From the NCBI GenBank assembly GCA_018812465.1, contig JAHJCS010000092.1, positions 1-16,958 of the forward strand: a DNA stretch of 16,958 bases, read 5' to 3'. Of the stretch, positions 12,125 through 15,986 are shown in pieces (position 1 is the stretch's first letter; every line of letters begins with the position of its first letter). Origin of the DNA: Nanobdellota archaeon. GTDB lineage: Archaea > Nanobdellota > Nanobdellia > Woesearchaeales > UBA12501. The position numbers were made by a program, and so were the translations under genes. Below the pieces are notes generated by a model, which was given only the letters and a program-made list of their open reading frames with translations, ran no database searches and was not told the DNA's origin.

Positions 12125-12997
12125 TTAACCAGCTATCTTACCAAGGATGTTGCATGTATTGCATAAATCTCCTTTGGATGGCTCTCTGCATTTTTTGCAG
12201 AATGCCTGGACTCCATTCCCGTGTTTTTTCCTCAGCTCAGGAATAATAGTGCTAAAAGACCTCACAATATTTAATTTTATCTTAGGATCTGACTTCTCAA
12301 GCCTGTCCAGCAGCATCCTGACCTTATTCCTGTAAGAAGATGTCCTGCATGGGCAGGGGCTGTAGTTGACTGGAAACTTCATTATCTTAGAGTATATGAT
12401 AACATCTTTCTCTGTAGTGTAATATAATGGTTTAACCCTCTGGACAAAAATTCCTGAACTGGTTAATCTCTTTGAGCCGGTCTTTGGCCCCAGCCTTGAA
12501 CCGACTTCAAGCTGATTTCTGAGCAGGTTCATCATGACAGACTGGGCTTCATCATCAAGGTTATGGCCTGTTACCAGATAATCTGCATTAAGCCTTTTCG
12601 CAGCCTTGTTGATGAGGTATCTCCTGAGTATTCCGCAGATAGTGCAGGATCTTAATTTAGTGCCTTTGGATGCCAGAGTCTGCCTGATGTAACAGAGTGA
12701 TTTTCCAAATGCATCCCTGAATGATATGATATGCAGCTTGACACCGTTTTCTTTGCAGAATTGCTTCAGGTTCTCCAGATTCTTCTGGGTATAATTGCCT
12801 ATGAGCGCATCAATAGTTATTGCCTGAACAATGTAACCTCTCTTCTTTAGGATGTGAAGGACAGCTGTAGAGTCCTTGCCGCCTGAGCATGCGACAAGCA
12901 CTTTGTCTTTCTTAGTGAAAAGATGATATTTTTTTATTGTATCCTCTACTTTGTTCTCAAATTCCCTGATGAATCTGTTCTTCTTTAATGTATCCAT
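12125..12997 (-). CDS. TtuA/NcsA-family tRNA 2-thiolation enzyme
   Basis: The 290-residue protein is an N-type ATP pyrophosphatase that activates a tRNA uridine by adenylation and inserts sulfur. The PP-loop is SGGKDS (38-43). Cysteines for the catalytic Fe-S cluster are C118 and C121 (RSCTICG) and C215 or C217 (SPCPC). The C-terminus has a zinc finger, C267/C270 and C279/C282 (CKKCREPSKGDLCNTC), typical of TtuA and NcsA/Ncs6. The N-terminal zinc finger usual in that group is missing: the protein begins directly at the helix before the PP-loop, and the frame upstream codes no cysteines. Whether it makes s2T54 or s2U34 cannot be told. A TATA-like element lies about 40 nt upstream (13031-13040). 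Confidence 0.87.
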   Translation of the reverse strand: MDTLKKNRFIREFENKVEDTIKKYHLFTKKDKVLVACSGGKDSTAVLHILKKRGYIVQAITIDALIGNYTQKNLENLKQFCKENGVKLHIISFRDAFGKSLCYIRQTLASKGTKLRSCTICGILRRYLINKAAKRLNADYLVTGHNLDDEAQSVMMNLLRNQLEVGSRLGPKTGSKRLTSSGIFVQRVKPLYYTTEKDVIIYSKIMKFPVNYSPCPCRTSSYRNKVRMLLDRLEKSDPKIKLNIVRSFSTIIPELRKKHGNGVQAFCKKCREPSKGDLCNTCNILGKIAG

Positions 12998-13054: not shown

Positions 13055-13079
13055 TTAATTGATTATGTTAATTGATTAT
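13055..13079. repeat. Perfect 12-bp tandem repeat at the end of the ThiI-like gene
   Basis: TTAATTGATTAT occurs twice, at 13055-13066 and 13068-13079, separated by one G. The copy inside the gene encodes the last residues (YNQLT) and contributes the stop codon region; the other copy is just outside. It looks like a local duplication by slippage. Confidence 0.6.
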
Positions 13080-13896
13080 ATTGATCTGTTATCTTAAGCA
13101 TCTCTTTTGCTTTCTTAGGGCTGATACCAACAAGAGGCCTGAGCACAGGAAGACTGAGATCTATATCCTTTGTGCTGTTTAGATCATGATTGGTGATAAG
13201 TGCTGTGCATCTCTTCTTAGCAGCAAGAGATTCTATATCCTTAAGATCTTTTATGAGGACAAGCTCTTTTAAGCACCCATAATTACTCAACAGGCTGATA
13301 TCTGATTTCTTGAATGATACTGGAATGATGTCACACCCCCTCCTCATTGCAAGAAGCCCTGCAAGTATTGAATCTTGATTCTCAACAAGCAGGATTACCT
13401 TTCCTTCAATGCCTGCAGGCAATCCCCCCACACAGGATATCTTCTCAGTGAATACATAAGCCTTATCTGATATCTCTATGGATATCTCAAGGTCTGGTTT
13501 CTTAAGCTTGACTTTCTTCCCTGTCTTCTCCACAATGAATGCCCCTATTTCTCTCTCAATCTCAGGGCTTGGCTTTAATCTCTTCTGGGATCTTTGCGCT
13601 GTGATCCTGAAGGTTGAGAATTCCTTGTTCAATGCCTGATTGAGGCATTCCTGTTTTATTGCATCAATATCAAGTTCAATCTCTTTTGCTATGCTTATAG
13701 AAGCGATTCCAAAGACTTTCCTCAGGCTCTGCACTGCTTTAGCTATATTCTGGGGGATGATTATAAATCTTCCAGGGATTTTCCTGATTGAGCCTTGGAC
13801 AGAATCTATCATATTGTACTTTAGCTTGTTCTCAAAGTTTATTCTGTTCTTGCCTTTCAAGGCTATCTCGCTGTACCTAACAAGAATGATTTCCAT
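13063..13896 (-). CDS. ThiI-like THUMP protein with degenerate PP-loop
   Basis: The 277-residue protein follows ThiI along its length: N-terminal ferredoxin-like and THUMP region (about 1-150, MEIILVRYSEIALKGKNR at the start, FRITAQRSQK near 96-105), the linker GGLPAGIEGKV (157-167), then a PP-loop-type domain ending in LPVLRPLVGISPKKAKEML. In real ThiI the next motif is SGGIDSP; here 171-177 read VENQDSI, so both glycines of the ATP loop are lost. The PP-loop domain is also shorter than in ThiI. It probably still binds tRNA through THUMP but should not adenylate uridine-8. It sits between iscU and the tRNA thiolase, so it may be a tRNA-presenting or sulfur-relay partner; this is inferred. 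It has no rhodanese domain. Confidence 0.82.
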   Translation of the reverse strand: MEIILVRYSEIALKGKNRINFENKLKYNMIDSVQGSIRKIPGRFIIIPQNIAKAVQSLRKVFGIASISIAKEIELDIDAIKQECLNQALNKEFSTFRITAQRSQKRLKPSPEIEREIGAFIVEKTGKKVKLKKPDLEISIEISDKAYVFTEKISCVGGLPAGIEGKVILLVENQDSILAGLLAMRRGCDIIPVSFKKSDISLLSNYGCLKELVLIKDLKDIESLAAKKRCTALITNHDLNSTKDIDLSLPVLRPLVGISPKKAKEMLKITDQYNQLT

Positions 13897-13911: not shown

Positions 13912-14325
13912 TCATGCCTTTTTATGCTTTTCCCTGAAGTCCTTGATAGCATCTTTAAGGCCTTCTGCTCCAAGCACAGAGCAGTGTATCTTCACAGGAG
14001 GCAGCCAGCCAAGATGCTCTAGTATATCCTGGTTGCTTATCTTCTCTGCCTGCTCAAGTGTCTTGCCTTTGGCAAGTACACATAATGCTTCAGAAGAGCT
14101 TATTGCAGCAACACAACCAAAGGTTTTGAATTTTATGTCAGTTATCTTGTTATCCTTGACTTTGATAAATATATGCATAACATCTCCGCAGGTAGGGTTG
14201 CCGACCTTGCCTGTTGCATCAGGATTCTTCATCTCGCCTGCGTGTTTTGGGTTCTTGAAGTAATCAAGAGCTTTCCTGCTGTATCCTCCTTGCTTGCTCT
14301 GTATGTTTGATGCATTATTTGGCAT
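13912..14325 (-). CDS. iscU: Fe-S cluster scaffold protein IscU
   Basis: This is the IscU/NifU-N scaffold on which [2Fe-2S] clusters are built from IscS sulfur. From the start chosen here (137 residues) it has the three ligand cysteines C46 (NPTCGD), C71 (KTFGCVAAI) and C115 (VKIHCSVLG), the cluster-labilising D48, and LPPVK at 108-112, the motif read by Hsc70-type chaperones in bacteria. A longer frame opens 48 bases upstream inside iscS, but GGAGG at 14333-14337, eight bases before the ATG at 14325, decides this start. It begins one base after the iscS stop, giving a tightly coupled pair. The N-terminal 14 residues are extra and look unstructured. Confidence 0.95.
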   Translation of the reverse strand: MPNNASNIQSKQGGYSRKALDYFKNPKHAGEMKNPDATGKVGNPTCGDVMHIFIKVKDNKITDIKFKTFGCVAAISSSEALCVLAKGKTLEQAEKISNQDILEHLGWLPPVKIHCSVLGAEGLKDAIKDFREKHKKA

Positions 14326-14326
14326 A

Positions 14327-15511
14327 TTACCAGCCTCCTGAATCAGCTGAATCTTTTGTGTCTGATTTTGCAAGAGGGCTCATCTTCCTGAGTTTTGAGA
14401 TTATTCCAGGCAGAACCTCTATTAGCTTGTCAATCTCTTCTTTTGTTGTGAACCTGCTTATTGAGAGCCTAAGGCTTCCATGAGCATCTTCTGCATCCAT
14501 ACCCAATGCCATTAGGACATGGCTTGGCTCTAAGGTATGAGAAGAGCATGCTGATCCTGTTGAGCTGCAAATTCCTTTTGCATCCAAGTAAGCTCCTATT
14601 GACTCTCCTTCAACATATTTAAAAGAGAAATTTGCATTATTGCACAGTCTCCTGTCACCTGTTGAACCATTTACAGCAGTATCAGGTATTTTCAGCACAT
14701 TTTCAAAGAGGTAATCTCTCATTTTTGTCATCTGTTTTATGTGGCTGCTGCCTGCGATTTTCACAGCCTTGGCAAATCCCACAATTCCTGAAACATTCTC
14801 TGTGCCTGATCTTAAAGCAAACTCATGGCCTCCGCCATGATTCAGAGGAGTTATTTTAGTGCCTTTCCTGACATAGAGAGCACCAACTCCTTTTGGTCCA
14901 TGGATCTTGTGGCTGTTTATTGTCACAAGGTCAAGGCTCTGCTTCTTTACATCAAGCAGTGTCTTTGTGTATGACTGACAAGCATCTGTGTGGAATATTA
15001 TTTCTTTCTTCCTGCATACCTCCCCTATTGCCCGGATGTCCTGTATTGTGCCAATCTCATTATTTCCGTGTATCACAGAGACAAGTATGGTCTGTTTTGT
15101 GATTGCCTTCTCTACCTGTTTTGGATCCACAAATCCTTCTTTGTCTACATCAAGGTATGTTACCTTGAAGCCTTGTGTCTCAAGCCACTTGCATGCATTG
15201 AGTATGCAGTCATGTTCAATCTTAGTTGTGATGATATGATTGCCCTTGCTCTTGTTCGCAAAAGCAATTCCTTTCACAGCAAAGTTGTTTGATTCAGTTC
15301 CTCCTGAAGTGAATATGATCTCATCGTATCTTGCACCTATTGACTTTGCGATTGTTTCACGGGCTTCTTCAAGAGCCATCTTTGCTTCCTGGCCTTTATG
15401 ATGGGTTGAAGAAGCATTACCGAATTTATCATCAAAATAAGGCTTCATTGCCTCAATGACTTTTGGGTCAGCCATTGTTGTTGCTCCATTGTCTAAATAG
15501 ATTGTTTTCAT
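14327..15511 (-). CDS. iscS: Cysteine desulfurase IscS/NifS
   Basis: The 394-residue protein is a class V aminotransferase-fold, PLP-dependent enzyme that takes sulfur from cysteine as a persulfide. Seen are FTSGGTESNN (67-76), IHGNNEIGT (148-156), HTDACQ (D176), the PLP lysine in NSHKIHGPKG (K202), RSGTENV (234-240) and the mobile active-site loop SSTGSACSSH with C322. The loop length places it in the IscS/NifS group rather than SufS. GGAGG (15522-15526 on the plus strand as CCTCC) lies ten bases before the ATG. It begins two bases after the regulator's stop and ends one base before iscU. The C-terminal tail (KSDTKDSADSGGW) is low-complexity. Confidence 0.96.
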   Translation of the reverse strand: MKTIYLDNGATTMADPKVIEAMKPYFDDKFGNASSTHHKGQEAKMALEEARETIAKSIGARYDEIIFTSGGTESNNFAVKGIAFANKSKGNHIITTKIEHDCILNACKWLETQGFKVTYLDVDKEGFVDPKQVEKAITKQTILVSVIHGNNEIGTIQDIRAIGEVCRKKEIIFHTDACQSYTKTLLDVKKQSLDLVTINSHKIHGPKGVGALYVRKGTKITPLNHGGGHEFALRSGTENVSGIVGFAKAVKIAGSSHIKQMTKMRDYLFENVLKIPDTAVNGSTGDRRLCNNANFSFKYVEGESIGAYLDAKGICSSTGSACSSHTLEPSHVLMALGMDAEDAHGSLRLSISRFTTKEEIDKLIEVLPGIISKLRKMSPLAKSDTKDSADSGGW

Positions 15512-15513
15512 GT

Positions 15514-15894
15514 TTATTGCACCTCCTCAACTCCTAGGCATGCCTCACATTTCTGAGGCATTCTTCCATGTTTGTAATGCACCTTGCAGAGAGTCTTGCT
15601 CTTCTTCACAATCTGAAGAAGCCTTTGCATCTCACATATCAGGATCTCTGGATTCTTGATTATGATATCAGAGGATTTATCTATTTCTTTCAGAGTCTCT
15701 GGAAGAAATTCCACTTCTTTAGCCCTTTTCAGTTTCAGATACTGGCTTACAGCTGCTTCTGTGATACTGAGCAGCTCTGCTATCTTGTTCTGCTTTAGTT
15801 TCTTCCTGGCCATTGATTTTGCCAGCTCTCTTCTTAATGAAGGGATTATGTACCACACTTCAATCTCCTGAGGCATGTACTGCTTGTTTATCAT
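15514..15894 (-). CDS. HTH regulator with C-terminal cysteine cluster, head of isc operon
   Basis: From the ATG at 15894 this is a 126-residue protein. A helix-turn-helix of the COG2522/XRE type occupies about residues 14-58 (IIPSLRRELAKSMARKKLKQ, then NKIAELLSITEAAVSQYLKL). The C-terminal third has cysteines C87, C103, C116 and C119 (LCKVHYKHG, then KCEACL), a layout able to hold an Fe-S cluster or zinc. A longer frame begins at 15978, but a TATA box lies about 28 nt before the ATG at 15894, and the longer version would start upstream of that box; a shorter start at 15876 is also possible. Being first in the iscS-iscU operon, it is probably its Fe-S or sulfur-responsive regulator, an archaeal counterpart of IscR in role only. 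Confidence 0.75.
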   Translation of the reverse strand: MINKQYMPQEIEVWYIIPSLRRELAKSMARKKLKQNKIAELLSITEAAVSQYLKLKRAKEVEFLPETLKEIDKSSDIIIKNPEILICEMQRLLQIVKKSKTLCKVHYKHGRMPQKCEACLGVEEVQ

Positions 15895-15898
15895 ATTA

Positions 15899-15912
15899 TT
15901 AACTATAGTTAA
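15899..15912. promoter_or_regulatory. 14-bp perfect palindrome, likely operator of the isc operon
   Basis: TTAACTATAGTTAA is its own reverse complement. It sits between the TATA box (about 15917-15929) and the likely start codon at 15894, i.e. over the expected transcription start. A repressor bound there would block polymerase; the HTH gene directly downstream is the obvious candidate. Confidence 0.55.
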
Positions 15913-15916
15913 GTTT

Positions 15917-15929
15917 CTATATATAAATT
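15917..15929 (-). promoter_or_regulatory. TATA box of the regulator-iscS-iscU operon
   Basis: The minus strand reads AATTTATATATAG, centred about 28 nt before the ATG at 15894. This implies a leaderless or near-leaderless message. No ribosome binding site is seen before that ATG. Confidence 0.6.
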
Positions 15930-15977
15930 TTTTGATTCCTGAAGCCATATATAAAACTGATTTTAGAAAACGAAACA

Positions 15978-15986
15978 TTTATATAG
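15978..15986 (+). promoter_or_regulatory. TATA box for the secreted repeat protein gene
   Basis: TTTATATAG is centred about 45 nt before the ATG at 16027, giving a leader of roughly 20 nt containing GGGG (16014-16017). It shares a 132-bp intergenic region with the isc operon promoter on the other strand. Confidence 0.5.

Follow-up and report, generated by a model that had tools for sequence, protein, structure and literature searches.

The window analysed here is a stretch of 16,958 nucleotides from a Nanobdellota archaeon (assembly GCA_018812465.1, contig JAHJCS010000092.1). Topoisomerase VI, Rio1, an archaeal KH protein and the size of the genome suggest a DPANN-type host. Three genes lie on its minus strand in the order IscU, ThiI homologue and TtuA-family gene, separated by gaps of 15 and 65 nt. 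The ThiI homologue (13063-13896, minus strand) is an unbroken open reading frame of 277 amino acids. The next gene in the same direction encodes a TtuA-like PP-loop tRNA thiolase with an intact SGGKDS motif (12125-12997, minus strand), which domain searches and surveys indicate is probably a separate enzyme. On the other side are the IscU scaffold gene (13912-14373, minus strand; PF01592, 144 bits) and an IscS/NifS-type cysteine desulfurase gene (14327-15511, minus strand), the latter scoring 295.7 bits for Aminotran_5 and 512.9 bits for TIGR03402, below the cut-off of 530.75. This gene map agrees with the original prediction, which had placed an unbroken frame between iscU and a TtuA-family gene. 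Directly upstream of iscS, an HTH protein (15514-15978, minus strand) carries a C-terminal cysteine/histidine cluster. The cluster takes the form Cx2H or Cx2C followed by Cx2C or a wider pair in 9/9 homologues, most of them near isc genes. The protein could regulate the isc operon in response to metal or Fe-S.

Domain searches found the N-terminal part of a ThiI architecture in the window protein. The ThiI ferredoxin-like region (NFLD; ThiI_fer, PF22025) was matched at residues 3-68 (13693-13890, minus strand) with 58.4 bits, above the cut-off of 25, and the THUMP domain (PF02926) at residues 78-150 (13447-13665, minus strand) with 45.2 bits, above the cut-off of 20.6. A GGLP linker follows at residues 157-160 (13417-13428, minus strand). 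The remainder, residues 163-277 (13066-13410, minus strand), is a vestigial and shortened PP-loop (PPase) domain, for which the PP-loop family PF02568 gave 18.2 bits over residues 163-198, below its cut-off of 20.5. Against the whole-protein model TIGR00342, the protein shows the NFLD and THUMP domain and scores 144.8 bits, below the cut-off of 264.5, with the aligned part covering positions 1-208 of 373. Among proteins of solved structure, the window protein is closest in sequence to PH1313 (1vbk), Thermotoga maritima ThiI (TmThiI) and Bacillus anthracis ThiI (BaThiI).

Alignment to TmThiI found in the window protein no SGGxDS ATP loop, dimer-interface (DI) loop glutamines or catalytic cysteine. 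The lost ATP loop reads VENQDSI (residues 171-177; 13366-13386, minus strand), with S182, G184, D186 and S187 of TmThiI (4kr6) corresponding to E172, Q174, D175 and S176. Q291, Q295, K320 and C344 of TmThiI are each replaced or absent, the dimer-interface-loop glutamines Q291 and Q295 being S241 and I245. These alignments, together with Pfam and TIGR00342, show that the NFLD and THUMP domain are intact, and bear out the earlier description of an ATP loop replaced by VENQDSI and of a shortened PP domain. The gene is therefore called the N-half below.

The window assembly (1.35 Mb in 280 contigs, estimated 79% complete) was searched with PF02568 for a second, intact ThiI, a check that the original prediction had proposed. 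No full-length ThiI was found by this search in the 280 contigs of the roughly 79% complete assembly. The matches were a stand-alone PP-loop domain in two pieces, each at a contig end, and the TtuA-like gene, the latter as a weak cross-hit. One piece starts MRKAIALISSGIDSPVAV and has an intact loop; the other carries a CxxC and later cysteines. The neighbours of both pieces are syntenic with one contig of G129, a genome of the same genus, where a single intact stand-alone PP-loop gene of 208 amino acids is present. About 22 residues between the two pieces are unread. On the strength of this one intact syntenic gene, the window genome very probably carries a stand-alone catalytic PP domain, here termed the PP-half, that is split by the assembly alone. 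CxxC and a third cysteine are present in the PP-half fragment of G000 (L001) and in the intact G129 PP-half (L056), and the window genome's PP-half belongs to this CxxC type. The motif is not universal, being found by regular expression in 26/51 PP-halves.

To follow both halves through the phylum, 279 genomes were searched with TIGR00342 and PF22025, and odd cases were rechecked with PF02568 and with profiles of our own alignments. Halves were sorted by frame length and by which part of the protein was matched; among the 78 N-halves, 27 were classed by frame length alone. Both halves were found in 72 genomes, the N-half only in 6, the PP-half only in 7 and neither in 194. By the same sorting, full-length ThiI is present in 55/279 genomes (41 above the TIGR00342 cut-off), and 54 of them are among the 194 with neither half. 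Genome G223 is the sole one of the 279 to carry full-length ThiI and both halves (L130, L131, L132), and the branch leading to its full-length ThiI is long in the tree of N-terminal parts. Some ThiI frames of 440-500 amino acids in the phylum may carry an extra domain.

The association between the halves is strong (odds ratio 333, Fisher p 7e-51). Since this p value ignores relatedness, the safer number is the family count: both halves occur in 26/29 families, and in 60/66 genera, that have either. With a mean completeness of 94%, about 5 genomes are expected to miss a given half from incompleteness alone. For 7/13 one-half genomes, a relative of the same genus has both halves; three one-half genomes (G011, G122 and G009) are rated 98-100% complete. 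The 72 pairs include some resting on PP-half pieces, at contig ends in G000, G110 and G248 and partial in G119, and some on a partial N-half, namely G062 (first 34 positions only) and G200 (two frames). Judged by eye from coordinates, only 3/72 pairs are close, with the halves about 4 kb apart or less in G231 and G026 and a PP-half piece at most 3 kb from the N-half in G248. The remaining placed pairs are distant or on separate contigs.

Residue conservation was compared in TmThiI numbering among 51 of the 78 N-halves, the window's own included, 50 PP-halves and 31 full-length ThiI proteins. The PP-halves sampled were 51 of 79, and the window genome's fragment among them was excluded from this comparison. 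N-halves retain Lys17 (51/51), Arg46 (50/51), Gly126 (50/51), Gly168 (51/51) and Pro170 (51/51), while their Cys344 position is empty in 51/51 and the Gln291 and Gln295 positions have no consensus. In the window protein, Lys14 of the NFLD is the equivalent of Lys17, G118 of the THUMP domain that of Gly126, which touches the 3' A of CCA, and G158 of the linker that of Gly168. PP-halves retain S182, G184, D186 and S187 in 49/50, and the one lacking them fits G110, whose gene ends at a contig edge. Gln291, Gln295 and Lys320 are each kept in 50/50 PP-halves, and an equivalent of Cys344 is present in 38/50 and absent in 12/50. All three domains and the active-site residues are thus present between the two halves, the Cys344 equivalent in 38/50. 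The TmThiI RNA contacts Tyr119, Ser123 and Arg141 are missing from most N-halves and also from most of the 31 full-length proteins.

This complementary conservation suggests that the halves retain the two sides of a trans arrangement seen in the TmThiI-RNA structure. As set out in PMC4041423, one subunit grips the RNA with its NFLD and THUMP domain and so brings U8 to the active site of its partner subunit; the two subunits meet mainly through the PP domain. The paper also states that the side chain of Lys17 in one state aims at the partner's active site, that the amide of Gly168 touches Asp319 of the other subunit, and that only dimeric ThiI, working in trans, can bring U8 to the active site.

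Both halves are predicted to be well folded. AlphaFold2 models reached a mean pLDDT of 93.8 for the N-half and 94.7 for the G129 PP-half. The best fold matches of the N-half model were PH1313 (1vbk_A, TMq 0.88) and then TmThiI (4kr7_A, TMq 0.84), and the PP-half model matched the PP domains of TmThiI and BaThiI (4kr6, 2c5s, 4kr7) with TMq 0.81-0.89. In the N-half model the vestigial domain is predicted to be folded and not a random tail.

The co-occurrence of the halves, their near-exclusion of full-length ThiI, the complementary conservation and the predicted folds lead to the reading that the window gene encodes the tRNA-binding subunit of a ThiI split over two genes, with the stand-alone PP-loop protein as its partner, to which we give a probability of about 0.78. 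The best reading of the pair is a two-subunit s4U8 synthetase, with the complex, its activity and the s4U8 product all predicted. The PP-half would supply ATP binding, U8 adenylation and cysteine chemistry, and the N-half would present the tRNA to it. The vestigial PP domain of the N-half would stand in as dimer partner and is proposed as the docking surface.

The immediate neighbourhood of the gene offers a different partner. The original prediction had seen in it a non-catalytic tRNA-binding adaptor that brings tRNA to IscS/IscU or to the TtuA-like thiolase, complementing the zinc finger which that thiolase has lost. The thiolase of the window indeed has no CxxC upstream of its ATP loop, as had been claimed, and retains the C-terminal pair. 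A TtuA-like gene lies on the same strand and no more than 300 nt away in 15/51 N-half loci, compared with 2/51 PP-half loci and 5/31 full-length ThiI loci, and anywhere in the pulled flanks in 26/51 N-half loci, a kind of count that is not comparable between the sets as their flanks are unequal (medians 10 kb, 8.5 kb and 4 kb). IscU is present in 9/51 and IscS in 12/51 pulled N-half loci. The N-terminal CxxC is missing in 8/8 TtuA-like genes abutting or overlapping the N-half and kept in 14/18 of the remaining TtuA-like genes in N-half loci. However, in genomes that lack an N-half it is also missing in 18/20 close TtuA-like homologues (L227-L246), and 5 of the 18 come from genomes with full-length ThiI elsewhere; the 20 were taken as top-scoring and are thereby biased to the finger-less subclass. 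A finger-less TtuA-like subclass hence exists independent of the N-half, and the finger data speak both for and against the proposed complementation.

The phyletic distribution also speaks against the thiolase as partner. A TtuA-like match is present in 246/279 genomes, with an E value below 1e-30 in 222 and the weak remainder possibly other PP-loop enzymes, whereas the N-half is found in only 78/279. G042 and G067, of the same family as the window genome, have a TtuA-like gene and neither half; their ThiI-type hits are weak and partial only, and that of G067 is the TtuA-like gene itself. Conversely, no TtuA-like match was found in G040 and G222, which carry both halves. A TtuA-like gene occurs beside full-length ThiI as well. 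The gene whose presence tracks the N-half is the stand-alone ThiI PP-loop protein. The kept, non-catalytic tRNA-binding role foreseen for the gene is upheld by the clade-wide loop loss and apparent purifying selection described below, but its partner is probably not the neighbouring thiolase or IscS/IscU, and an adaptor serving these proteins is considered unlikely. The gene neighbourhood is better explained by a common source of sulfur or Fe-S than by direct partnership. There is a hint that an IscU neighbour is linked to the CxxC-type PP-half, which was counted in 10/11 cases with such a neighbour versus 16/40 others (Fisher p 0.005, a hand tally with no correction for phylogeny), and IscU could be a source of Fe-S for a [4Fe-4S]-type PP-half.

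A further alternative keeps both proteins in one pathway as independent players. The PP-half would then thiolate U8 alone or with some other tRNA binder, and the N-half would be a tRNA chaperone or serve another U8/U9 modification. Thermococcales lend it some weight. Among 23 genomes whose titles name Thermococcus, Thermococcales or Thermococci (23 of 26 such loci), full-length ThiI is present in 17/23, a stand-alone PP protein in 14/23 (G299 fragments excluded) and both in 12/23, and in 9/12 of the last the two genes lie at most 2 kb apart. No N-half was seen among these 23 genomes. A stand-alone PP protein can therefore exist without the N-half, which speaks against taking every such protein for a ThiI subunit. 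Moreover, a table in PMC6313347 lists an archaeon with s4U8 and s4U9 under 'ThiI + alpha'. Against independence stand the tight pairing of the PP-half with the N-half in the phylum studied here, its near-exclusion of full-length ThiI, and the retention of the trans-acting Lys17 and Gly168 in 51/51 N-halves, and we regard it as improbable. At loci L167-L169, L171, L197 and L198, full-length ThiI and a nearby stand-alone CxxC-type PP-loop gene share a contig. Two Aciduliprofundum genomes carry full-length ThiI.

The N-half appears to be under purifying selection, as judged from sequence comparison. Against G129, dN/dS was 0.21 for the whole gene and 0.16 for residues 157-277, with dS near saturation. 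For the vestigial domain a value could be computed in 7 of 8 pairs and ranged from 0.07 to 0.34, a rough estimate given the high dS in most pairs. It is low in both parts of the gene, and relaxed selection was not seen in the relatives compared. SGGxDS was found in 0/51 N-halves, and the loss of the loop is thus not confined to the window genome. A genome-specific oddity is ruled out by this count, the low dN/dS and the kept residues. Simple decay of a thiI gene whose function was lost would account for the missing ATP loop, DI-loop and catalytic cysteine and for the shortened domain, but it is very improbable in view of the same loop-less state in 51/51 N-halves across the phylum, the vestigial-domain dN/dS values, high dS notwithstanding, and the retention of tRNA-facing residues such as K17 in 51/51. 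The window gene probably encodes a functional subunit rather than being a relic in decay.

The number of splits was approached with gene trees, which were poorly resolved. L122 (cut at a contig end) was left out of the N-tree and TP_L187 (a cut full-length gene) out of the PP tree. A single origin of all 51 PP-halves gave p 0.118 in the AU test. For a single origin of 47 PP-halves p was 0.96 and the constrained tree outscored the free one, this group having been named after the tree was seen. PP-halves of family f2 (L066, L073, L111, L113) have no CxxC and cluster with full-length ThiI in the quick tree built without constraint; a second fission or a replaced catalytic half is possible for them.

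PMC2948915 considers it plausible that archaeal ThiI acts in tRNA modification only, and PMC8407392 counts ThiI among the thiamine genes of DPANN. No description of a split ThiI was found in the titles and abstracts of the openly licensed literature searched, and an earlier description elsewhere is possible. Under the split reading, a seemingly dead tRNA-modification gene becomes half of a predicted enzyme that spans many families within a single phylum of small archaea. The pathway is missed by whole-protein cut-offs, with 41/279 genomes passing TIGR00342 and 71 others having both halves. A split ThiI would also put to a natural test the conclusion from crystallography that dimeric, trans-acting ThiI alone can place U8.

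Among known proteins, PH1313 of Pyrococcus horikoshii, whose structure (1vbk) was released in 2005, is the closest likeness of the N-half. In the 2023 THUMP review, PMC9957541, it is called 'ThiI-like' with its activity unconfirmed, and the several ThiI homologues of Pyrococcus are said to have possibly separate roles. PH1313 and the N-half share the three-part outline, the loss of the ATP loop and a small PP domain, with a TMq of 0.88 over 306 columns and 30% identity. PH1313 LHDELSA aligns opposite VENQDSI, and the window protein has the PH1313-type features of a loop-less, C-terminally shortened PP domain on NFLD-THUMP. Unlike the N-half, the NFLD-THUMP part of PH1313 sits inside the full-length ThiI of Thermococcales (SH-aLRT 100 for the group in a quick tree), so its loss of the active site looks independent of that in this phylum and would have taken place in a lineage where stand-alone PP proteins are common. 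The split reading predicts a role for PH1313. It may even be, as a tentative idea with slightly less than even chances, that an obligately heteromeric ThiI arose repeatedly in archaea, here in this phylum and independently on the line to PH1313. One chain would present the tRNA and offer a dummy PP domain for dimerisation, and a stand-alone PP protein would complete the composite active site in trans; PH1313 would then gain a function.

Ctu2 is a degenerate paralogue. The eukaryotic U34 thiolase Ncs6/Ncs2 (Ctu1/Ctu2) resembles the proposed pair in being a two-protein thiolase where archaea use one protein, as given in an excerpt of PMC10067955, and differs in modification and family, which makes it an analogy only. 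The PP-half in turn resembles the stand-alone PP-loop subfamily PRK08349 / NF006222, named only 'hypothetical protein', which scored highest of the NCBIfam families for the PP-halves of G129 (202.4 bits) and G078 (200.1 bits). The four PP-halves scanned against it scored 176.9-202.4 bits, all under the cut-off of 251, and the string PRK08349 was absent from the openly licensed papers searched. With the [4Fe-4S]-dependent archaeal U8 sulfurase, PP-halves of the window genome's type share the CxxC and third cysteine, and they may bind a cluster; the CxxC-type PP domain of methanogens is cluster-binding according to PMC5372739. Compared with full-length ThiI (TIGR00342; TmThiI 4kr6, BaThiI 2c5s), the halves jointly cover all of its domains, three in number, and the majority of the active-site residues that were compared. 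Full-length ThiI is one gene, whereas here there are two, with the catalytic and presenting roles predicted to lie on separate chains.
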